Under the pieces are notes generated by a model, which saw only the letters and a program-made list of their open reading frames with translations, did not search any database and had not been told where the DNA came from. Made by a program: the position numbers and the translations under genes. From Bacteroidota bacterium (GTDB lineage: Bacteria; Bacteroidota; Bacteroidia; B-17B0; Aurantibacillaceae), in NCBI GenBank assembly GCA_016185125.1, contig JACPOC010000028.1, forward strand, positions 1 through 64,000: a stretch of 64,000 bases of DNA, written 5' to 3'. Positions 39,651-51,055 of the stretch are shown piece after piece (positions within the stretch are counted from its first letter, which is position 1; each line of letters opens with the position of its first letter).

Positions 39651-39721
39651 TAACACTATGAGCGTAGACCCACACTACATTTCATAATAGTTTCGGTTAA
39701 TAAAAGATAAGAAAATTGCAA

Positions 39722-40459
39722 ATGAAACATACTTACAAAATTACGGGAATGACCTGCTCCGGTTGTGTAGCAAAAGTACATGATTTATTATCTAATGTAA
39801 AAGGTGTTAGTGCTGTTTCTGTAAATTTAGATCAGTCTGAGGCAGTACTTACAATGGAAAATCACATTTCTACCAATGATCTAAAAGCGTCTTTAAAGGA
39901 TTTTCCTAAGTATCAATTAAATGAAAAAACAGTTGATGCTTCCAAAAGCATTTCCCCTGAGGAAGTTGGCGAAAAAAGCTGGATAGAAACTTATCGTCCT
40001 GTTATATTAATTTTTGCGTACATAACAGGTGTTGTAACAATTAATGAATATGTGCAACCTTTATTCAGTATTACACATTGGATGAATGCCTTCATGGCGG
40101 GTTTCTTTTTAGTATTCTCTTTCTTTAAGCTTCTAAACATTAAAGGCTTTGCCGAAAGTTACTCAATGTACGATATTGTAGCTAAAAAATTTAAATTTTA
40201 TGGATACATATATGTTTTTATTGAGTTAGGCTTGGGCATTTCTTACTTGGTAAAATTTGAGCCTTTCATAACAAATAGTGTTACACTGATAGTGATGAGT
40301 ATTAGTATCATCGGTGTTCTTCAAAGCGTTCTAAATAAAACAAAAATAAAATGTGCCTGCTTAGGCGATGTTTTTAATCTGCCAATGAGTACTATAACAA
40401 TAATTGAAGACGGGCTGATGATATTAATGGCGGGGATAATGCTAATTACATTAACTTAA
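39722..40459 (+). CDS. HMA domain fused to MauE/DoxX-like redox membrane protein
   Basis: An N-terminal HMA domain (about 1-70) with the Cu-binding MTCSGCVAKVHD motif is joined to a four-helix MauE/DoxX-like membrane domain (about 95-245). The membrane part contains a KCACLGDVFNLP segment (about 210-221); the CxC there resembles redox-active thiols of this superfamily. The fusion suggests transfer of metal or electrons across the inner membrane. The ATG at 39722 is preferred to the TTG at 39716. It continues the island, starting about 70 bp after the barrel gene. Confidence 0.8.
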   Translation: MKHTYKITGMTCSGCVAKVHDLLSNVKGVSAVSVNLDQSEAVLTMENHISTNDLKASLKDFPKYQLNEKTVDASKSISPEEVGEKSWIETYRPVILIFAYITGVVTINEYVQPLFSITHWMNAFMAGFFLVFSFFKLLNIKGFAESYSMYDIVAKKFKFYGYIYVFIELGLGISYLVKFEPFITNSVTLIVMSISIIGVLQSVLNKTKIKCACLGDVFNLPMSTITIIEDGLMILMAGIMLITLT

Positions 40460-40504: not shown

Positions 40505-42559
40505 ATGAAAATTAAAACTAAACCCACACTTCTCATTCTATTCTTTCTTTCTTCTATTCTAAGGTCTCAAAACCTTGAGCCCTGTTACTTTGATAAGTAT
40601 CAAAGAACAAACAGTACGCAAATAAACAAAGCAGAGCTTGAAATTCAGTCAGGAATAAATAAAGCAGAACAAAAAATTTTAAGCCATAATCCAAATTTAA
40701 AAATTATTCCGGTTGTTGTTCATGTGATTCATGATGGAGGAACCAATAATATATCTGATGCCCAGATTCAAACTCAGATTGATGTTATAAATGAAGATTT
40801 TCGTAAAAAATTCGGGACTAACGGTTTTGGAGCTGGCGTAGACACAGATATAGAATTTTGTCTGGCAAAAAAAGATCCAAACGGAAAATGCACCAATGGT
40901 ATTGTAAGGATTAACAGCCCCTTATCAAACCACCAAACATATCAAAGGAGTTTATTGAAAAATCTTAGTTATTGGGACAATACGCGGTATTTAAATATGT
41001 ATGTTGTCAAAAATATAAATAATGGAGGTGGAATATTAGGATATTCATCCTTTCCGGGTGGGCCTGCTAATGAAGATGGTATAGTTGTACGACATGATTA
41101 TTTCGGAAAGATTGGTACAGCGGCATCTTCACTTGGAAGAACTACTACACATGAAATTGGACATTGGTTTGGTTTGTATCATACATTTAATAACGGTTGC
41201 GGTACAGATACTTGCTCTGGTGGGGATTTAGTATGTGATACACCGCCTGTTGCGAATCCAAATTTTGGTTGCCCGGGAACAGTTAATTCATGTACTATTG
41301 ACAGCAAGCCCGATCAAATACTTAATTATATGGATTACACAAACGATAATTGTAAAAATATTTTTACGGCGGGCCAAAAGTTAAGAATGCAATCTACCTT
41401 AACTACAATACGCGACACTATTTGGAAGGCCTGGAACATTGATTCAACAGGATGCGACAGTGGTTATATAAGTTCTAATTGTAAAGTAATTGCAGATTTC
41501 GTAACTCTTACCCCTACAATTTGTGCAGGAAATAACATTACGTTTTATAATAAATCTCAAAATAACCCTACCAACTATCAATGGTTTTTTCAAGGTGGAA
41601 CACCATCAGTATCTTCTGTTGCTAACCCTACGGTAACGTATTCATCGCTTGGCAGCTTTCAGGTAAAGCTGATAACTACTAATTTTTATGGGACAGATAG
41701 TTTGGTTATTAATAATTATATAAGCGTAACCACTCCTCCTGTGGGGCAGCCATTACCTTATTCTGAAAATTTTGAAGGATTTACATTTCCTCCAAATGGC
41801 ATTACAATTGATAATCCCGATGGAGGAATTACGTGGGAACGTGATACAATTGCAGTCCCCTATCAGGGCGTAGCAAGCGCAAAAATAAATAATCTCATTA
41901 ATACTAATTATGGACAATCAGATGCGCTTATTCTTCCAAGATTTAATTTTACAACCTTTTCAGGTACACCCTATTTATCCTTTAAATGGGCTTACGCAAA
42001 ATCAGACGTAAATTATTCCGATGAATTAATTGTTTTAGTTTCCAGTAACTGCGGGGTTACATGGAGCCAGGTTTTTTATAAAACCGGTACTTCATTAACA
42101 ACAGGCTCAACACAAACAACACCCTATATTCCTACTTCCGCTACTGTATGGAAAGCCGCCAATATAAGCCTTGCATCTTATACTAATTCAAGCAATGTGC
42201 AAATTAAAATTGTAAATGTTACAGATGGAGGAAATAATTTATATGTGGATAACATAAACATTAACGCTCTTACGGTAGGAATTGAAGAAGTAACGGGTTC
42301 AGCACTTTCACTTAATCTATTCCCTAATCCTGCAACAAACGTATTAACTATTGAATACAATCTCCTAAAGCCTGAATCCATTTCAATTAGTATAATGGAT
42401 GTTTCCGGAAAGGTAATTGAAATGTCAGATAATGTAAAAAAGGGTATTGGTCAACAAACAACCACGGTTAATACTACACATTATACAAATGGTATTTATT
42501 TTATCAAAATGAAAATAGGAGAAGAGTACTTCACAAAAAAAATAGTAATAATTAAATAA
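40505..42559 (+). CDS. Secreted M43 (cytophagalysin-like) zinc metalloprotease with T9SS domain
   Basis: Signal peptide about 1-21. The M43 catalytic domain (about 60-300) has the extended zinc motif HEIGHWFGLYH (216-226) and the downstream Met-turn (LNYMDYT). It is followed by a PKD-like segment (about 325-405, NYQWFFQGGTPSVSS), a jelly-roll region (about 415-590) and a T9SS domain (NLFPNPATNVLTIEYNLL, about 603-684). The secreted protease should act outside the cell or on its surface. It is unexpected inside a copper-efflux island; no metal-binding tail or obvious substrate is visible. Confidence 0.88.
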   Translation: MKIKTKPTLLILFFLSSILRSQNLEPCYFDKYQRTNSTQINKAELEIQSGINKAEQKILSHNPNLKIIPVVVHVIHDGGTNNISDAQIQTQIDVINEDFRKKFGTNGFGAGVDTDIEFCLAKKDPNGKCTNGIVRINSPLSNHQTYQRSLLKNLSYWDNTRYLNMYVVKNINNGGGILGYSSFPGGPANEDGIVVRHDYFGKIGTAASSLGRTTTHEIGHWFGLYHTFNNGCGTDTCSGGDLVCDTPPVANPNFGCPGTVNSCTIDSKPDQILNYMDYTNDNCKNIFTAGQKLRMQSTLTTIRDTIWKAWNIDSTGCDSGYISSNCKVIADFVTLTPTICAGNNITFYNKSQNNPTNYQWFFQGGTPSVSSVANPTVTYSSLGSFQVKLITTNFYGTDSLVINNYISVTTPPVGQPLPYSENFEGFTFPPNGITIDNPDGGITWERDTIAVPYQGVASAKINNLINTNYGQSDALILPRFNFTTFSGTPYLSFKWAYAKSDVNYSDELIVLVSSNCGVTWSQVFYKTGTSLTTGSTQTTPYIPTSATVWKAANISLASYTNSSNVQIKIVNVTDGGNNLYVDNININALTVGIEEVTGSALSLNLFPNPATNVLTIEYNLLKPESISISIMDVSGKVIEMSDNVKKGIGQQTTTVNTTHYTNGIYFIKMKIGEEYFTKKIVIIK

Positions 42560-42680
42560 TGCCTCATTTTATTGAGCCAATACGCAAAAAAAAAATTATA
42601 AATAAACAAACCATGAAAACAAACCAACAATTAAAAGGCCGCTTGATGATTTTGATGACTATCACACGCTACAATCGTAA

Positions 42681-43106
42681 ATGAAAATAATACTAATAGC
42701 TTTCTTAATCGCACTTGGGTTAATGCCAGGTGTAACATTGGCTCAGCATGATCACGCTAGCGGGGGTGCGCCTGAACATAAGGCAGAAGCACCGCATGGC
42801 GGCGAAATAAAAGACGTGGGCAAATACCATTTAGAAATAGTTTTTGATCCAATGGCTTCTTTAGAAAAAATGAGCATTTACATTTTAAAGTCAAATTTAA
42901 ATACGCTTAATAGTAAAGATGCTTCCGGAACTATAAGTTTAAACTATAAAAATGGTACCGAGGTAAATACTGAGTTGTTAAATGATAATATAAATAAACT
43001 GTTTTGTGATGTAAAAGATGTGGTTAACCCTTTTAATGCCATCATAAAAATAGTTTATAAAGGAAAATCATATAGTACTACGTTTTTTTATAAAGGAATG
43101 AAATGA
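42681..43106 (+). CDS. Exported His-rich N-terminal protein of the copper island
   Basis: Signal peptide 1-21 (ends GVTLAQ) is followed by a metal-ligand-rich stretch (HDHASGGAPEHKAEAPHGG, 23-41) and a beta-rich domain (about 45-141) of no recognised family. His-rich leaders of this kind bind Cu(II), Ni(II) or Zn(II). Proteins with an APHGG-like start occur beside CusCBA systems in other Bacteroidota. The stop overlaps the next start by 4 bp (ATGA), and a 23-codon upstream frame overlaps its own ATG in the same way. Confidence 0.65.
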   Translation: MKIILIAFLIALGLMPGVTLAQHDHASGGAPEHKAEAPHGGEIKDVGKYHLEIVFDPMASLEKMSIYILKSNLNTLNSKDASGTISLNYKNGTEVNTELLNDNINKLFCDVKDVVNPFNAIIKIVYKGKSYSTTFFYKGMK

Positions 43107-43756
43107 TCGAAGGCTTAAAAAACATCCGTAGAAAAATATTGCGCCTTTTTAAAATGCGGCCAATCCATAAAGTCATCCGCCTATTACAAGTAAATAATTA
43201 TTTGTTAATGGAATATGTATTGGAAGTATTTGGCCACAACGGGGAGTATCACACATTAGATTATGTAGAACATGTTGGCCAACTTGAAATCTGGGAAATA
43301 AATAAAGACTGTGAAAATGACTTAAGAAATAACTTACCAAAGGCAACCATAAAAATAACCGATTCATTTGCGCAAATAAAGAGTACAAATAAAATATATG
43401 ATACTATTTTAATTGATAATCATCAAGGGTTGTTTGGCGATAACAAGTGCGAACACTTTGAGATTATACATTATTGCTTTAAAAAGTTAGCGGACAAGGC
43501 CGTTTTAATCACTAATGTTATTCCTGATTTGCTATTAAGTAAATATAATATTATTGAAGAAAAGTTAAATGAGCATATTGAACGAAGAAAACAATTCTAC
43601 GATCACGCAACCGGAACCTCTATTTCCCGTTCATGCTTTGAAAAAACATATAAAAAAATCGCTTGGAATAATGGCTACCTTATTAAACATATTTTCTTTA
43701 TAAAAAGAAATTATTTAATGACGTATGTAGTTTTATGTTTAGAAAAAATAAAATGA
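43103..43756 (+). CDS. Methyltransferase-fold protein of unknown function
   Basis: 217 residues without a signal peptide. The pattern MEYVLEVFGHNGEYHTLDYV...LEIWEINKDCENDL...ITDSFAQI...YDTILIDNHQG resembles a class I Rossmann methyltransferase or spermidine-synthase fold, but the glycine-rich SAM loop is degenerate (FGHNGEYHT), so SAM binding is doubtful. The start overlaps the previous gene by 4 bp (ATGA), so the two products are coupled. Not assigned to a named family. Confidence 0.6.
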   Translation: MIEGLKNIRRKILRLFKMRPIHKVIRLLQVNNYLLMEYVLEVFGHNGEYHTLDYVEHVGQLEIWEINKDCENDLRNNLPKATIKITDSFAQIKSTNKIYDTILIDNHQGLFGDNKCEHFEIIHYCFKKLADKAVLITNVIPDLLLSKYNIIEEKLNEHIERRKQFYDHATGTSISRSCFEKTYKKIAWNNGYLIKHIFFIKRNYLMTYVVLCLEKIK

Positions 43757-43797
43757 GTAGTAAGTAAAATAACAATACAAAATAATCTACAAAACAA

Positions 43798-44169
43798 ATG
43801 AAAAATACAAACAAACAAAAATTAAGAATAGTAACGATCCTTTCATTTATAGGATTAATAATTTATTCCTGCAACTCTTCTAAAAAAGCCACTTCTTCAG
43901 TAGTATTAACCCCGGGTGAAACGGAACTAAAGGCGATACAGGTGAGATATCCAGCCACTACTTCGGAAACATTAAAGGAAGGTTATGCTGTGTACATCGG
44001 CCCATGCACAACCTGCCATGGTAAAAAAGATATTTTTTCGAGAAGTGAAAAAGAATGGCAGGAAGATATTGATCGTATGGCACCAAAGGCCGAAATAACC
44101 GATAAGGAAAAGGACGCGCTCCGGAAATACATTTTAGCCATGAAAGCTGGCAAGTCAACTACAAAATAA
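43798..44169 (+). CDS. Lipoprotein single-heme cytochrome c
   Basis: The lipobox IYSC (Cys about 25) anchors the protein in the membrane facing the periplasm. One c-type heme site CTTCH lies at 70-74; Met94 in DRMAPKAEIT is a plausible sixth ligand. Helices on either side match small class I cytochromes of about 90 residues. It may take electrons from the copper oxidases or from the membrane protein encoded next, but this is inferred only from gene order. Confidence 0.82.
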   Translation: MKNTNKQKLRIVTILSFIGLIIYSCNSSKKATSSVVLTPGETELKAIQVRYPATTSETLKEGYAVYIGPCTTCHGKKDIFSRSEKEWQEDIDRMAPKAEITDKEKDALRKYILAMKAGKSTTK

Positions 44170-44266
44170 AGAGCCCATAAATTTACATGGACACCAATTT
44201 TTAAAAACAATAGAGGATATTAAAAATATAACCTTGCAATAATTACAAACTACTAAAATACATAAC

Positions 44267-45232
44267 ATGAATTTATTACAAGACTTTCCATCCCTGCACC
44301 CATTAATTATCCACTTTCCAATAGTTCTTATATTAATCGCGGTTCCTTTTCAGGCTTTTCTTGTTTGGAAAAACTATATTCAAATACGTTGGGCAACTGT
44401 TTGTATTATGTCGGCAGCGTTTCTCTCAGCACTTTTAGCAAGTACCGTTTTTCATGCAGAGCCATCAGACGACGCGCCGAAAGAAGCATTAATGATGTTT
44501 GCACAACATGAAAAATTTGCCTTTTATACCCTGTGGATGTCTGGCATAACATTAGTGCTGAAATTGATTGGCGATTTATATAAAATATTCCGCCGATCCT
44601 ATGACATTTTGGTTCTCGCCACTGCTATCATCTCAGCAACTTTTCTTTCAATTGCCGGCCATCATGGTGCCAAACTAACCCATGTGGCAGGTGTAGGGCC
44701 AATGGGGCGATATTTAAGTAAGGAGCATGAGGAGCATGGAGGAATGAAAGGTATGGATCAAATGGGGGAAATGAAAAACGGTGATTTAAAAACTAATGAT
44801 TCCATGCCTGCAATGAAAGATATGCCCTCGAAGGATTCTTCGGAAAATATGAGCAATATGAACATGAATAATCCGAAGAACGATGCCAAAAGCATGGAAA
44901 ACATGAAAGGAAAAAATACAATGAAAAACATGAAAGGCATGGATAAAAACTCCACCGATAACAAGAATATGGAAGGAATGAAAGATATGCCCGGTATGAA
45001 TAGTGGTGGCAAAGAAAAAAAAGAGAATGAAAAAAAAGACATGAAGGGAATGGATGATATGAAAGACATGCCCGGTATGAATATGAATACTGATAATAAA
45101 AAAGAAACAAAGAACGGAATGAGTGGAATGCAAGGCATGGATAATATGAATGGCATGAAAAAAGATCCAAGAGACACAATGCGTTTTGAAGATAATAACC
45201 CGAACAGAAAAAAATTAAAATCAAAAAAATAA
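44267..45232 (+). CDS. DUF2231 membrane protein with a very Met-rich C-terminal tail
   Basis: Residues 1-145 are four membrane helices with the DUF2231 start HPLIIHFPIVLILIAV and further histidines (FHAEP, QHEKF, AGHHGAKLTHVAG) that could bind heme or copper. Residues 150-321 form a hydrophilic tail with about 31 methionines in MxxM, GMKGM and DMPGMN repeats alternating with Lys/Asp/Asn. Such Met motifs bind Cu(I) and Ag(I). The tail probably faces the periplasm as a metal sponge or ferry to the oxidases. The low-complexity DNA also opens three overlapping antisense frames, which are not genes. Confidence 0.8.
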   Translation: MNLLQDFPSLHPLIIHFPIVLILIAVPFQAFLVWKNYIQIRWATVCIMSAAFLSALLASTVFHAEPSDDAPKEALMMFAQHEKFAFYTLWMSGITLVLKLIGDLYKIFRRSYDILVLATAIISATFLSIAGHHGAKLTHVAGVGPMGRYLSKEHEEHGGMKGMDQMGEMKNGDLKTNDSMPAMKDMPSKDSSENMSNMNMNNPKNDAKSMENMKGKNTMKNMKGMDKNSTDNKNMEGMKDMPGMNSGGKEKKENEKKDMKGMDDMKDMPGMNMNTDNKKETKNGMSGMQGMDNMNGMKKDPRDTMRFEDNNPNRKKLKSKK

Positions 45233-45248
45233 AATAACACAAGTTCTA

Positions 45249-47501
45249 ATGAAAAAATTATTCCTGATATTCTTAATGCTCAATTCTTTGGTTGGTTTTA
45301 CTCAGTCAATGGATATGATGAATATGGGAAATCACCAAAGTCAAGTTAAAGCATCTAATGAGGTAAAACATATTGGTAAACGTGTGGTATATAATTTATT
45401 TATAAATGATACTATGGTAAATTTTACAGGTAAGCATCGCATGGCCATTGCGGTTAACGGACAAATTCCCGCTCCATCACTTGAGTTTACCGAAGGAGAT
45501 ACCGCCGTGATTTACGTTCATAACCTAATGAAAATGGAAACTTCCATTCACTGGCATGGAATATTATTTTCTAATGAACAAGATGGTGTTCCATATTTAA
45601 CAACCACACCAATTAAGTCAGCCACAACCCATACATTTTCTTTTCCGCTCATTCAAAGTGGTACATATTGGTATCATTCTCATACAATGCTGCAAGAACA
45701 AAGCGGCTTGTACGGTTCTATTGTAATACATCCAGCACATGAAAAAACTAAATTAAAAGAGTATGTGATGGTTCTTTCGGATTGGACAGATGAAAATCCA
45801 ATGCAGGTATTGCGTTACCTGAAACGAGGCGGTGAATGGTACGCTATTAAAAAAGGAGCAATGCAAAGTTATGGCGAGGCTATTGCCGCCGGTTATTTTA
45901 AAGATAAAGTAAAGCAGGAATGGCAGAGGATGCCGGCAATGGATGTGGCAGATGTGTACTACAATAAATTTTTAACCAATGGGAAAGAAAAAAATTATTT
46001 TAAAGACGCGCGTCCCGGAGAAATAATCAGGCTTCGCATAATTAATGGTTCCGCTTCATCCTATTTTAATCTTCAATACGCGGGTGGAGATATGCGGATA
46101 ATTTCAGCTGATGGAATTAATATTTCACCTTTTTCCATAAATAAATTAGAAATTGCTACCGCCGAAACTTACGACATGCTGATTACTATTCCCGAAAGCG
46201 GTTCTGCCGAATTAAGAGCAACCGCCATGGATGTTACAGGTTATACGTCCACCTATTTTGGAAGCGGTGATATTAGTAAAGCGCCAGACATTCCTAAGCT
46301 TAACTATTTTCAGATGATGCGTGAAATGAACAGCATGGGCAATATGAACATGGGCGCCGGAATGAAAGGTATGAACATGAAAGGAATGGACATGGGCGAA
46401 AAAAATAAAAAGATGGATATGCCTGCCGATACTTCAGCACCAAAAAAAGATCAGCCTATGGATATGCAAAATATGAACGCTATGGGAATGGGAAACATGG
46501 CAGGAATGAATATGGGAATGGGCGGAGATTTCAATTACGATATGTTACGGGCCTTGCATCCCACAACACTCGACTCTTCACGTAAAGTCAGAGAAATTAA
46601 TTTAACGCTTACGGGTAACATGTTGCGATACGTTTGGTCTTTTGATAACAAAACATTATCCGAAGCAGATCTCATCCCTATCAAAAAGGGAGAAAATGTA
46701 CGGATGGTTTTAACCAACACAACCATGATGCGGCATCCGATGCATCTGCACGGCCACTTCTTTCGTTTTATAAACGCGCAGGGAGAATATTCTCCTATAA
46801 AGCACACTTTTGACATTAAGCCAATGGAAACAGTTACCATTGAGTTTGAAGCGGACGAGGACAAAGACTGGTTTTTCCATTGTCATATATTATATCACAT
46901 GATGGGAGGCATGGCCCGAATTGTTAGTTATGAAGGCAGCGAGCAAAATGAGTACGCTAAAACAAAATATAAAAAGCTAAAACGAGAACATAATAAATTA
47001 TACCCTTGGTTTGATTTGTCGGTTCATTCGCAAGGCGCATGGCTAAACGGGAATATTTCTAACAATAAGAACGCGTTGGAATTTGAAGGACGCTTAAGCT
47101 GGACAGGCAATTTTGAAACAGAAACACACTTATTAAGGTATCTTGATAAAAAACAATACCTGGCTTTTTATATAGGTTCTGATTACCGCAAAAACAAAAC
47201 GCTTGAACAATTTAATAAAATTAACAGTAAAGATAACCGGCAGGTTATTGATGTTGGTTTTTATTATCTTCTGCCAATGCTTGTTCGATCGGAATGGCGA
47301 ATTGATAATTATGGTAAATTACGGCTACAATTAGAAAGGCGGGATGTGCCCTTAAGTAATAATTTTTTTATGGATTTACGTGTAAATACAGATAAAGAAT
47401 ATACCATAAGTTTCAGGTACATGATTAAAAAACAATTTTCAATAAGTACTAATTATGACAGTGATTACAAGTGGGGTGCAGGCTTAACATGGCATTATTA
47501 A
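45249..47501 (+). CDS. Multicopper oxidase with Met-rich insert and C-terminal barrel-like extension (CopA/CopB-like fusion)
   Basis: Residues 20-560 form a three-domain copper oxidase: HWHG (about 100), YWYHSHTMLQEQSG (about 141-154), HPMHLHG (about 498) and the T1 block HCHILYHMMGGM (about 543-554). A Met/Gly-rich insert (about 355-430, NMNMGAGMKGMNMKGMDMG and more) resembles the Cu-binding region of CopA. The last roughly 170 residues contain amphipathic beta strands ending in WGAGLTWHY, as expected of a CopB-type outer-membrane barrel. It would oxidise Cu(I) at the outer membrane. It starts 16 bp after the Met-rich gene. Confidence 0.88.
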   Translation: MKKLFLIFLMLNSLVGFTQSMDMMNMGNHQSQVKASNEVKHIGKRVVYNLFINDTMVNFTGKHRMAIAVNGQIPAPSLEFTEGDTAVIYVHNLMKMETSIHWHGILFSNEQDGVPYLTTTPIKSATTHTFSFPLIQSGTYWYHSHTMLQEQSGLYGSIVIHPAHEKTKLKEYVMVLSDWTDENPMQVLRYLKRGGEWYAIKKGAMQSYGEAIAAGYFKDKVKQEWQRMPAMDVADVYYNKFLTNGKEKNYFKDARPGEIIRLRIINGSASSYFNLQYAGGDMRIISADGINISPFSINKLEIATAETYDMLITIPESGSAELRATAMDVTGYTSTYFGSGDISKAPDIPKLNYFQMMREMNSMGNMNMGAGMKGMNMKGMDMGEKNKKMDMPADTSAPKKDQPMDMQNMNAMGMGNMAGMNMGMGGDFNYDMLRALHPTTLDSSRKVREINLTLTGNMLRYVWSFDNKTLSEADLIPIKKGENVRMVLTNTTMMRHPMHLHGHFFRFINAQGEYSPIKHTFDIKPMETVTIEFEADEDKDWFFHCHILYHMMGGMARIVSYEGSEQNEYAKTKYKKLKREHNKLYPWFDLSVHSQGAWLNGNISNNKNALEFEGRLSWTGNFETETHLLRYLDKKQYLAFYIGSDYRKNKTLEQFNKINSKDNRQVIDVGFYYLLPMLVRSEWRIDNYGKLRLQLERRDVPLSNNFFMDLRVNTDKEYTISFRYMIKKQFSISTNYDSDYKWGAGLTWHY

Positions 47502-47675
47502 TTCTACAACATACATATTAAGAGGCAATGAATTTTTATCGAATAAATACTTTTTTATATGCGGGCAACGCTATTATTTATCCGTCAATAAAACTATTTC
47601 ATAAACCAAAAAACATCACAACTATATCCCCCAACCAATCCAATAAAAATTACTAACCAATAAAAAATAAAAACC

Positions 47676-47885
47676 ATGAAAAAATCAATTGTAATCCTTG
47701 CACTAACAAGTTTTTTTGCACTAACCGGATGCAAAAACTCAGGTGAAGAAAAATCAAAAACAGAAGAAACAAAAACAGAACAAAGCGCGGAAGTATATAC
47801 ATGCTCCATGGATCCTGAAGTTGTTTCGGATAAACCCGGAAGTTGCCCCAAATGTAATATGGACTTAGAAAAAAAGACTAAATAA
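47676..47885 (+). CDS. Small HMBD lipoprotein
   Basis: A signal peptide with lipobox LTGC (Cys about 19) is followed by a Lys/Glu-rich linker and one heavy-metal-binding domain, YTCSMDPEVVSDKPGSCPKC, then NMDL (about 42-66). The same motif opens both adaptor proteins further along the island, so this protein is probably a free periplasmic metal carrier for the pump. It starts 7 bp before cusA. Confidence 0.85.
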   Translation: MKKSIVILALTSFFALTGCKNSGEEKSKTEETKTEQSAEVYTCSMDPEVVSDKPGSCPKCNMDLEKKTK

Positions 47886-47892
47886 TTAAATA

Positions 47893-49170
47893 ATGGTAGA
47901 AAAACTAATCTCGTTTTCATTACGCAACCGGTATATAGTTGTGTTAATAGCAACAGTTTTGTTTGCATGGGGTATATATTCTGTGCAACAAAATCCTATT
48001 GATGCAATACCGGATCTCTCTGAGAACCAGGTTATCGTATTTACCGAATGGATGGGAAGAAGCCCGCAAATAATAGAAGATCAGGTAACATACCCGCTTG
48101 TAAGTAATTTGCAAGGCATTCCTAAAATTAAAAATGTACGAGGCTCATCCATGTTTGGAATGAGCTTCGTTTACATCATATTTGAAGATGATGTGGATAT
48201 CTATTGGGCGCGAACAAGGGTTTTGGAGAGGTTAAGTTATGCGCAAAGACTGCTCCCGCAAGGCGTAACACCTACGCTTGGGCCAGATGGTACAGGTGTT
48301 GGTCACGTTTTTTGGTACACACTGGATTCGAAGGATATGGATCTTGGTGAGCAAAGAGCTTTACAGGATTGGTACATAAAACTTGGTTTACAAACAGTAA
48401 AAGGTGTGGCAGAGGTTGCCTCATTTGGAGGGTTTGAAAAACAATATCAGATTGTTCTTGATCCTGTTAAAATGCAATATTACGGCCTCTCATTTATGGA
48501 TGTAATGAATAAGGTTAAAGCAAACAATAATGATGTAGGTGGAAGAAAATTTGAAATGAGCGACATGGCTTATATTATAAGAGGCTTGGGTTATATTAAA
48601 AGCCAAACAGAAATTGAAGATATTGCTTTAAAGCAATTGGAAGGAATTCCTGTAAAAGTTAAAGATATTGGCAGTGTTCAAATGGGTGGCGACCTTCGTC
48701 TTGGCATTTTTGATGATAACGGCAATGGTGAAGTTGTGGGTGGAATTGTAGTTATGCGTTATGGAGAAAATGCAGATAAGGTTATTACCGCAGTAAAAGA
48801 AAAGATGAAAGATATTGAAAAAGGTTTGCCGCAGGGAGTTAAATTTAAAGTTGCCTATGATAGAAGTACGCTGATTGAGGATGCAATTGAATCGGTAAAA
48901 GGTACGCTGATTGAGGAGATGATCATGGTATCCCTTGTGGTTCTGATATTCCTTTTTCATTGGCGTAGCGCTTTAAGTATCATCATTCAAATTCCGGTAA
49001 CAATTGCTGCGAGTTTTATATTATTAAATGCATTTGGGGTATCCTCAAATATTATGTCTCTAACGGGTATAGCCCTTGCAATTGGGGTAATAGTAGACAA
49101 TGGGATTATAATGGTTGAAAATTCATATCGTAATTTATCCGAATTTAAAAAAGACTCATCTCATGACTAA
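47893..49170 (+). CDS. cusA: CusA/CzcA-family RND metal pump, N-terminal part (frame broken)
   Basis: First 425 residues of a heavy-metal RND transporter. Helix 1 (RYIVVLIATVLFAWGIYSV), the first periplasmic pore domain, and helices 2-4 up to IGVIVDNGIIMVENSYR, which includes the proton-relay Asp, are present. The frame then ends after a 6-A run (49147-49152). Removing one A joins it to the next frame as ...NLSEFKKTHLMTNEERIS..., which gives a normal RND of about 1050 residues. The break lies in the cytoplasmic loop between helices 4 and 5. It may be a sequencing error, a real mutation, or a split coupled by the overlap ATGACTAA at 49163-49170. Confidence 0.88.
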   Translation: MVEKLISFSLRNRYIVVLIATVLFAWGIYSVQQNPIDAIPDLSENQVIVFTEWMGRSPQIIEDQVTYPLVSNLQGIPKIKNVRGSSMFGMSFVYIIFEDDVDIYWARTRVLERLSYAQRLLPQGVTPTLGPDGTGVGHVFWYTLDSKDMDLGEQRALQDWYIKLGLQTVKGVAEVASFGGFEKQYQIVLDPVKMQYYGLSFMDVMNKVKANNNDVGGRKFEMSDMAYIIRGLGYIKSQTEIEDIALKQLEGIPVKVKDIGSVQMGGDLRLGIFDDNGNGEVVGGIVVMRYGENADKVITAVKEKMKDIEKGLPQGVKFKVAYDRSTLIEDAIESVKGTLIEEMIMVSLVVLIFLFHWRSALSIIIQIPVTIAASFILLNAFGVSSNIMSLTGIALAIGVIVDNGIIMVENSYRNLSEFKKDSSHD

Positions 49171-51055
49171 CGAAGAAAGAATATCTATTATTGAAAAATC
49201 CTGCAAGCAGGTTTCGCGCGGTGTATTTTATTCTACTATTATTATTATCACTTCCTTTTTACCGGTTTTTCTTTTAACAGGACAGGAAGGTAAACTGTTT
49301 CATCCCTTAGCTTGGACTAAAACTTTTATCCTGGCTATTGATGCCTTTCTTGTTATTACTTTAGCACCAGTTCTCATTTCCTTTTTTATGAAAGGTAAAT
49401 TTAAACCTGAAAGCAGCAATCCAATAACCCGCAATTTAGAAAAAGTCTATACACCTATGATCAGGTGGTGTCTAAAATGGCGAAAGACTACCATAGGTAT
49501 TAATATAGTAGCCTTGATTATCAGTATACCTTTGATGATGAATATGGGAACAGAATTTATGCCTCCCTTAGATGAAGGCTCCTTATTATTTATGCCTGTA
49601 ACTTTACCGGATGTTAGTAATTCTGAAATCAAACGTATTCTCCAAGTACAGGATCGGTTAATCAAATCTGTTCCTGAAGTTGAAAACGTTTTAGGTAAAG
49701 CCGGAAGAGCAAGTACAGCCACTGATAATTCCCCAATTAGTATGATTGAAACTATTATTATTCTTAAGCCAAAATCTAAGTGGCGTAAAGGGTTAACAAA
49801 AGATGCGATTATTAATGAGCTTAATGGTAAGCTTCAAATACCCGGTATAACTAACGGTTGGACACAACCCATTATTAACAGGATAAACATGTTATCTACC
49901 GGAATAAGAACAGATGTAGGAGTAAAAGTGTACGGTCAAAATCTTGATACTATATATGAATTTTCCAAAAAAATCAAGAAACATTTAGAAGGGGTTGATG
50001 GCGTAAAAGATTTATATGTAGAACCAATAACAGGAGGAAAGTATATTGATATAGCTATAAAGAAAAGTGAAATCGGAAGATATGATCTTACGGTGGATGA
50101 TGTTAATTCAGTAATTGAAGGAGCTCTTGGTGGAATGAAATTAACGACTACTATCGAAGGTCGTCAAAGGTTCTCAGTTAACGCACGTTTTGGGCAGGAC
50201 TATCGTAATACTATTTCATCCCTTAAGCAATTACCTGTTCAAACAATGGCATTCGGAACAATCCCATTAGACGCAGTAGCCACAGTTAGCATTACGGAGG
50301 GACCCCCAATGATAAATTCTGAAAACGCTCTTCTTAGGGGAACAGTTTTATTTAATGTAAGGGAGCGAGATCTTGGAAGCACTGTTAAAGAAACTCAGAA
50401 TCGTTTAAATGACATGCTGAAAAAAATGCCTAAAGGATATTTTATAGAATGGAGCGGACAGTGGGAGAATCAGATCCGCGCTAACAGAACCTTAAAAATG
50501 ATAATGCCTATTGTATTGTTGATCATCTTTTTCTGTCTCTACTTCGCTTTTAAATCGGTTCGCGAAGCGTTTTACAGTTTGATAACCATCCCTTTCGCGT
50601 TAATTGGAGGAATCTATATGGTTTATTTTTACGATGTAAATCTCTCTGTTGCTGTTGCAGTGGGATTTATTGCCCTGTTCGGAATTGCAGTAGAAACAGG
50701 TATTGTAATGGTAATTTACCTTAACGACGCCATGCAAAAACTCGTGGAAGCAAAAGCTAAAACAGGTGAGATAATAACTAATGAAGATTTAAAACAATAT
50801 GTTATTTACGGTGCGGCTAAACGCTTACGTCCTAAATTAATGACTGTATCGGTGGCTCTTTTTGGATTAGTGCCTGTACTATGGTCAACCGGAGTTGGCA
50901 GTGATGTTATGATTCCAATTGTGCTGCCTATGATCGGCGGTGTTTTCACCTCTTCCACGCACATATTATTGGTAACACCGCTCATCTTTTTAATGGTAAA
51001 AGAATACGAACTTAAAAAATTTGGTAAAATAGAATTAATACATGCGCAACACTAA
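49163..51055 (+). CDS. cusA: CusA/CzcA-family RND metal pump, C-terminal part (frame broken)
   Basis: C-terminal portion of the same transporter: helices 5-6 (GVFYSTIIIITSFLPVFLLTG), a second periplasmic domain with GTEFMPPLDEGSLLFMPVTL, and helices 7-12, ending VKEYELKKFGKIELIHAQH. The ATG at 49163 (MTNEERIS) overlaps the upstream stop codon by sequence ATGACTAA. An ATG at 49115 also opens the frame but encodes unrelated residues. Metal specificity is inferred as Cu(I)/Ag(I) from context. The TolC-like gene starts 14 bp before its stop. Confidence 0.88.
   Translation: MTNEERISIIEKSCKQVSRGVFYSTIIIITSFLPVFLLTGQEGKLFHPLAWTKTFILAIDAFLVITLAPVLISFFMKGKFKPESSNPITRNLEKVYTPMIRWCLKWRKTTIGINIVALIISIPLMMNMGTEFMPPLDEGSLLFMPVTLPDVSNSEIKRILQVQDRLIKSVPEVENVLGKAGRASTATDNSPISMIETIIILKPKSKWRKGLTKDAIINELNGKLQIPGITNGWTQPIINRINMLSTGIRTDVGVKVYGQNLDTIYEFSKKIKKHLEGVDGVKDLYVEPITGGKYIDIAIKKSEIGRYDLTVDDVNSVIEGALGGMKLTTTIEGRQRFSVNARFGQDYRNTISSLKQLPVQTMAFGTIPLDAVATVSITEGPPMINSENALLRGTVLFNVRERDLGSTVKETQNRLNDMLKKMPKGYFIEWSGQWENQIRANRTLKMIMPIVLLIIFFCLYFAFKSVREAFYSLITIPFALIGGIYMVYFYDVNLSVAVAVGFIALFGIAVETGIVMVIYLNDAMQKLVEAKAKTGEIITNEDLKQYVIYGAAKRLRPKLMTVSVALFGLVPVLWSTGVGSDVMIPIVLPMIGGVFTSSTHILLVTPLIFLMVKEYELKKFGKIELIHAQH

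Follow-up and report, generated by a model that had tools for sequence, protein, structure and literature searches.

Among the closest described counterparts of the locus analysed here are PcoB and the multicopper oxidase (MCO) PcoA. A Met/His-rich disordered region of PcoB has been reported to be needed both against copper accumulation and for the level of PcoA, and point mutants of PcoB without Met or without His accumulated copper, yet were not copper-sensitive (PMC12509749). Wherever PcoB occurs, PcoA is reported to occur too, but not vice versa (PMC9210255). SilE, a disordered periplasmic protein, is reported to fold as it takes up as many as eight Ag+ via His/Met motifs, and multiple Ag+ or Cu+ ions are described as bound by SilE and PcoE (PMC5008109). 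Binding of Cu(I) is likewise reported for model compounds that have Met ligands (PMC11840665). A porin-like end on an MCO of this kind, with some similarity to PcoB, has already been described for the Bizionia argentinensis protein G2EDV6 (PMC11213822). For the domain family DUF2231 (PF09990) we found no settled function, the word appearing in a single paper, as a table entry, in a literature search that covered 5.39 million papers of PMC.

In this study we analysed an open reading frame (ORF 44267-45232, + strand, ATG start, 321 aa) lying in a stretch of 64,000 nucleotides of a Bacteroidota bacterium (contig JACPOC010000028.1; hereafter the window), whose product joins a DUF2231-like membrane domain to a Met-rich tail and whose next gene downstream encodes an MCO (Table 1). 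The tail resembles the N-terminal region of PcoB/CopB in being a disordered, Met-containing segment encoded beside a CopA/PcoA-type MCO, and it repeats the asymmetry of PcoB and PcoA in that it is always found with its MCO, and not the reverse. Unlike in PcoB/CopB, however, the segment is C-terminal on a four-helix membrane protein, has DNNPxR at its end and contains only 2 His in the protein analysed here, and it is the oxidase that carries the porin-like part, as a fusion. It shares with PcoE and SilE predicted disorder and a richness in Met with repeated Met motifs, but those proteins are periplasmic, with ten His each, whereas the present one is predicted to be membrane-anchored and is coupled to an MCO. 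With DUF2231 proteins it has in common the four helices, HPxxxHFP at helix 1, a His in helix 3 and GHxG in helix 4, and it differs from them in its Met tail, its constant end, His63, its MCO partner and a score below the Pfam cut-off. The downstream MCO matches G2EDV6 in combining three MCO domains with a porin-like end, whereas the word DUF is absent from the main text of that description, in which no mention of a Met-tailed partner was found (PMC11213822). What is new is the arrangement, the copper-defence parts being known and the MCO-porin fusion already in print; the literature searched (PMC only) yielded no description of a Met-tailed DUF2231 protein.

Table 1. The Met-tailed gene, its parts and its immediate neighbours (positions of the window)
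Feature	Position	Strand	Basis
Lipoprotein-like monoheme cytochrome c, neighbour, judged outside the unit	43798..44169	+	97 bp upstream of the Met-tailed gene
DUF2231-like four-helix membrane domain, residues 1-147	44267..44707	+	Pfam scan, relatives' alignment, AlphaFold2 model
Met-rich tail, predicted disordered, residues 148-321 (174 aa, after GVGPMG; 31 Met, 20 MxxM pairs)	44708..45229	+	Sequence, shuffles, AlphaFold2
Conserved terminal peptide DTMRFEDNNPNR, residues 303-314, then basic end	45173..45208	+	DNNPxR in 26/26 tail-bearing loci
MCO, 750 aa, CopA/PcoA-like, next gene after the Met-tailed gene (16 bp gap)	45249..47501	+	Pfam, TIGR01480 similarity
Met-rich insert of the MCO, about residues 355-428, before the last domain	46311-46532	+	Sequence
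Porin-like C-terminal part of the MCO, residues 585-750, ends in Tyr	47001..47498	+	12 predicted strands, low-confidence model

The four-helix domain and its methionine-rich tail

AlphaFold2, run on an alignment of 29 sequences, models the domain as four helices (residues 11-34, 38-60, 72-104 and 110-140; block-mean pLDDT 76-97), in agreement with the first-pass annotation of this DNA, which had also pointed out the motif HPLIIHFPI (residues 11-19) and other His, found at positions 63, 81, 132, 133 and 139. Its assignment of the protein to DUF2231 stands through the relatives but not through the protein's own score, which amounts to 19.6 bits (E 0.001) against a Pfam cut-off of 26.4. PF09990 is matched at E<=0.01 by 41 of the 43 aligned relatives (best 9.4e-14), and many plasmid relatives carry the annotation DUF2231. 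By these sequence comparisons the kinship is firm by way of the relatives, and the protein is called DUF2231-like because its own score lies under the cut-off. A search of the host's own genome with the DUF2231 profile at E<=0.001 returned zero matches.

Across the 43 aligned relatives, His 16 and His 81 are invariant and His 11 and His 132 nearly so. The four are present in 22-23 of 23 tailed, 19-20 of 20 tail-less and 22 of 22 CxxCH-bearing relatives, the latter all sharing His 139 as well; the CxxCH-bearing proteins were placed by adding them to the existing alignment, and their His positions are only as good as that alignment. Since these four core His are common to the whole family as sampled, they cannot alone mean copper. 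By the same alignment, His63, at the end of helix 2, occurs in all 23 tailed proteins, 14 of 20 tail-less ones and none of the 22 CxxCH-bearing relatives, and may mark the copper branch. DUF2231 domains inside long proteins with one or two CxxCH motifs were seen at loci L031, L033, L036, L043 and L073-L090.

All the conserved His lie close to where helices end, on the face of the membrane that also has the two termini, presumably the periplasmic one. As read from the sequence, loops 1 and 3 are positive and loop 2 is acidic, and in several sister proteins without the tail, helix 1 is preceded by what looks like a signal peptide and then by a stretch rich in His and Met; these loop charges and starts suggest that both ends face the periplasm. 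A weak Pfam match to CopD (PF05425; 15.1 bits against a cut-off of 32.1) was not confirmed by a profile-profile comparison with 10 CopD-matching proteins, 3 of them over the CopD cut-off (probability 2.2%). Fold searches of the domain with Foldseek and VIA-align returned generic four-helix bundles with no family prominent (Foldseek best E 0.14; best structural Z 13.1, within the range that the tool warns of for bundles), and a sequence search of the PDB gave nothing better than one match at E 0.94.

The tail, for which block-mean pLDDT values of 41-59 predict disorder, consists of Met to 17.8%, as against 1.0-4.5% in 23 and 6.7-7.2% in three of the 26 window proteins counted. The earlier estimate of about 31 Met proved exact for residues 148-321, and the reading of MxxM motifs was borne out by an excess of M-x-x-M pairs over the 5.2 found in 2000 residue shuffles, none of which reached 20. 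No MM pair occurs in the tail. Among 23 tails, which range from 149 to 258 residues and from 26 to 55 Met and show imperfect short repeats, the MxxM count was unreached by any of 2000 shuffles in 22, the exception (L062; p about 0.10) carrying an MDHSKM-type repeat instead. This set omits L010, whose tail is broken by a run of N, L100, which has a frameshift, and L102, whose annotated protein accession is identical to that of L095; these three are included in the 26-locus counts for the end motif and the neighbour.

In 12 chosen, partly overlapping pairs of relatives, which exclude the window's own tail, tail dN/dS ranged from 0.06 to 0.33. Met was retained at 86-100% against 61-98% for other tail residues and was higher in 11 of the 12 pairs, a figure that is probably inflated because aligning Met-rich sequence favours Met-to-Met matching. 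These substitution patterns indicate that the tail is under purifying selection and functional. At its end, the motif R-[FY]-x-DNNP-x-R, followed by a polar or basic terminus, was found in 25 of 26 tailed loci, and DNNPxR did not occur elsewhere in six-frame translations of 205 records (1.18 Mb).

The downstream oxidase and its surroundings

The MCO encoded 16 bp downstream contains the Pfam domains PF07732, PF07731 and PF00394. The motifs HWHG, HSH, HPxHLHGH and HCHxLYHM, which we take to be the Cu-ligand motifs of MCOs, are kept in 25 of 25 aligned proteins. With TIGR01480 it aligns over residues 40-560 at 408.4 bits (E 4.9e-122), the curated cut-off of 478.95 not being reached; judged from this score the protein is CopA-like, and it is not filed as copper_res_A. 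Noting the neighbours of Met-tailed relatives, as had been suggested in the first-pass annotation, gave a uniform result: the next gene downstream was an MCO at all 26 tail-bearing loci, each time with a porin-like end, which at the other tailed loci is 60-82% identical to that of the window. In Hymenobacter sp. DG25B (L092 6142-8591) the MCO lies in two ORFs, so that its reading frame starts late, and is annotated as two genes.

The structural model of the MCO is poor (mean pLDDT 47.8, pTM 0.31), and therefore only the strand count and the porin match of its end are used, with caution. In this low-confidence model the C-terminal extension, of about 165-190 residues, has 12 predicted strands, and one VIA-align row pairs it with the mitochondrial porin mVDAC (Z 12.3, 143 aligned, 3.5 A). 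The PcoB/CopB barrel PF05275 was matched neither in the Pfam scan of the MCO end nor in the host's own genome, and a comparison with three CopB proteins by hhalign gave P 0.059 and a probability of 0.9%, so that homology to CopB could not be shown.

A plasmid search with the extension alone returned 25 records, 24 in MCO-annotated genes and one unannotated, and within the class the extension was found at 62 places in 50 of 345 genomes. A DUF2231 gene stands directly upstream at the window, L051 and L058, and 343 bp upstream at L055. Of the remainder, 3 of the 62 were outside the survey, and the 55 places fetched, two of them without upstream sequence, showed no clear DUF2231 within roughly 1-2 kb upstream (one marginal 71-aa match, 14.9 bits). 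The pairing is one-sided: the tail was always found with the MCO, and most MCOs with such an end have no DUF2231 in front. Tail-less DUF2231 genes lie directly upstream of related MCOs at L051, L058, L063 and L065-L070 (at L063 and L065-L070 the MCO end is beyond the fetched stretch), so that pairing does not need the tail and extends beyond the tailed proteins. Over 21 loci, distances between the domains go with those between the MCOs (Mantel r 0.87, 0 of 999 permutations), and much of this correlation is shared descent.

From its gene content the surroundings of the Met-tailed gene are a copper island, otherwise ordinary, with a CueO-type MCO, an outer-membrane-like protein, an HMA-MauE fusion, an HMA protein, an HMBD lipoprotein, an RND pump in two ORFs, a TolC-type protein and two CusB/HlyD-type adaptors. 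The fusion of an HMA domain to a MauE-like membrane domain (39716-40459) has a 48% identical homologue beside an RND part in another genome (L225 780-1484). The two ORFs of the RND pump (47893-49170 and 49115-51055) cover positions 2-417 and 403-1020 of Pfam ACR_tran. At L049 and L050 kilobases separate the two RND parts, whose order differs, and the upstream stretches fetched showed no N-terminal part next to the C-terminal one; the split thus does not look like a simple frameshift. In the middle of the island, a peptidase M43-type protein with PKD and secretion-sorting domains is encoded at 40505-42559; weak matches to its end region lie near copper genes in L052 and L226. Operon membership was judged from gene spacing only, and a promoter and terminator scan of 42500-48000 yielded no usable signal, with 20 promoter-like and 3 terminator-like sites against 25.3 and 4.1 in shuffles.

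A lipoprotein-like cytochrome c is indeed encoded just upstream, as the first-pass annotation had stated, and the gene is a plausible one, but the coupling of the tail to heme that it derived from this neighbour is not supported by the distribution of the gene. No homologue of the cytochrome was found at E<=1e-5 in the 11 tailed genome loci (about 6 kb each side), in L227, or on any plasmid at E<=1e-3. In the host order, by contrast, 70 of 87 genomes contain one, the window's own included, against 2 of 87 with the domain. None of the window's copper proteins occurred within at most 1.5 kb each side of 19 cytochrome loci, among which one response-regulator match was seen (L218). Cytochrome c-annotated genes do lie near copB on two proteobacterial plasmids, and the window cytochrome is without plasmid match at E<=1e-3. 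The constant genomic partner of the tail is the MCO and not the cytochrome. At the level of the domain a weaker link to heme survives, suggested by the four core His being kept in the CxxCH-bearing relatives.

Distribution of the tailed proteins

A scan of one genome per species over 84,980 species, which finds close relatives only, returned 11 relatives, all tailed (in L010 the tail is the one broken by a run of N). They belong to Chitinophagaceae, Sediminibacterium, Lacibacter and Flavihumibacter, and one each is assigned to Chitinophagales and Sphingobacteriales. Among the 19 records returned when plasmids were searched at the protein level, 13 of 13 Hymenobacter plasmids were tailed, whereas six more distant records (Adhaeribacter, Pontibacter, Spirosoma and Fibrella; 29-38% identity) were tail-less. 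One more tailed protein was found in a genome of another family of the class (G577, L062/L227). The tail-bearing loci number 26: the window, the 11 genomes (mostly Chitinophagaceae), G577 and the 13 Hymenobacter plasmids. Absence of the tail from all relatives, which the first-pass annotation had named as refuting its proposal, is contradicted by the genome and Hymenobacter plasmid relatives, more distant relatives being tail-less.

At L048 the domain is 66-67% identical and only a 30-residue tail remnant is left; some 5 kb separate this gene from its MCO, the intervening genes including one for a P-type ATPase, and it represents the single case in which tail loss coincides with loss of the MCO neighbourhood. 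In Hymenobacter qilianensis (L100 5004-6121) a frameshift splits the tail over two ORFs. At L057 (7778-8296) a tail-less DUF2231 gene has near it an ORF of its own for a lipoprotein-like product of 172 residues, about 40 of them Met (MMxHMM type), as though a gene apart could provide the Met store. On the flanks of the tailed gene and its MCO at L227 (5571-10609) are two more small proteins rich in Met, with 28 and 29 Met, together with a 114-aa protein rich in Cys that looks by eye like the four-helix copper-binding proteins annotated on Hymenobacter plasmids.

Within the host order, two genomes out of 87 were found to have the domain, the window's and one more, whose protein is distant and ends soon after the domain. 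The nearest relatives found for the window protein are mostly from Chitinophagaceae. From the rarity in the host order, the gene-MCO pair was probably acquired. The GC content is about 0.37 for the pair, 0.30-0.35 for the preceding 14 kb and 0.36 for the following stretch; this profile is not decisive for transfer, and the rarity in the order is the better hint of acquisition.

Possible roles of the tail

On balance we favour, as a probable though by no means secure reading, a membrane-anchored periplasmic Cu(I) sponge or shuttle working with the adjacent MCO. The four-helix domain would serve as an inner-membrane anchor from which both ends reach into the periplasm, and the disordered tail, by precedent from other Met-rich proteins, could bind several Cu(I) or Ag(I) through its MxxM sites. 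It would thereby lower free periplasmic Cu(I) and raise local Cu(I) at the MCO, which would then oxidise Cu(I) handed over from the tail to Cu(II). As for DNNPxR, its most likely role is that of a docking peptide which would keep the MCO, or the outer-membrane side of its porin-like end, within the tail's reach, the MCO being the candidate partner because it is the one constant neighbour found. The domain, the predicted disorder, the Met periodicity, the selection on the tail, the constant end and the MCO pairing are observed; periplasmic side, metal binding, hand-over and docking are what we infer from them. The membrane-tethered copper ferry of the first-pass annotation is upheld, as far as sequence can do so, by the copper island, the MCO next in every tailed locus, the Met retention and the low dN/dS.

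A chain of 174 residues has, by the standard random-coil estimate, a mean end-to-end distance of about 10 nm, and it is possible that the tail could stretch across the periplasm, bridging to an outer-membrane MCO. A bolder version, which we put forward as tentative and rather doubtful, is a trans-periplasmic relay in which a DUF2231 inner-membrane module, possibly redox-active via its four His, would carry a methionine cable crossing the periplasm, with DNNPxR docked on an outer-membrane-anchored oxidase-porin fusion, so that Cu(I) would be caught, oxidised and released outward by one linked unit.

The coupling of all 26 tails to one kind of MCO, the adjacency of the genes and the constant end peptide would also fit a partner in assembly or stability, in which the chief task of the tail would be to hold the MCO, with its porin-like part, or to make it stable, and the Met load would serve to metallate the enzyme rather than for bulk detoxification; a stabilising effect of this sort on PcoA has been reported for the disordered region of PcoB (PMC12509749). 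Yet tails that vary between 149 and 258 residues and between 26 and 55 Met fit a buffer better than a defined chaperone site, and MCOs with a like end exist without a DUF2231 partner, so that we consider this role unlikely. Still less probable is that the DUF2231 domain is a b-heme redox module exchanging electrons with the copper of the tail, as a cupric reductase or cuprous oxidase. Here the matches to four-helix bundles, which include de novo diheme bundles, are unspecific (best Z 13.1; Foldseek E 0.14). The conservation of His 11, 16, 81 and 132 in tailed, tail-less and CxxCH-bearing relatives, near one bundle end by sequence position, speaks for such a module, but no conserved partner cytochrome was found, and none of the 22 CxxCH-bearing relatives has the His63 that every tailed member shares.

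Two further readings dispense with copper. Met-rich periplasmic peptides have been proposed to act as oxidant sinks, and the high Met content and predicted disorder of the tail would suit Met sacrificed to ROS or HOCl and repaired by methionine sulfoxide reductases. However, the Pfam scan detected no family of these reductases among 18 window neighbours, and the Met are periodic (MxxM) rather than merely abundant and adjoin an MCO in 26 of 26 loci, which leaves this role very improbable. That the tail is slippage-prone repeat DNA without function, to which its variable length and imperfect short repeats might point, is scarcely credible, being largely contradicted by the dN/dS and Met retention of the 12 pairs and by an end peptide present in 26 of 26 loci.

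With the Cu(I) sponge or shuttle as the preferred reading, the tie of a DUF2231 branch with a selected Met tail and a constant end peptide to one kind of oxidase in all 26 loci gives this family a testable job, and the locus lends itself to studying, in a natural setting, how an MCO receives copper from disordered segments rich in Met. If this reading is true, some Bacteroidota would have reached a PcoA-PcoB-like arrangement with the parts joined differently.
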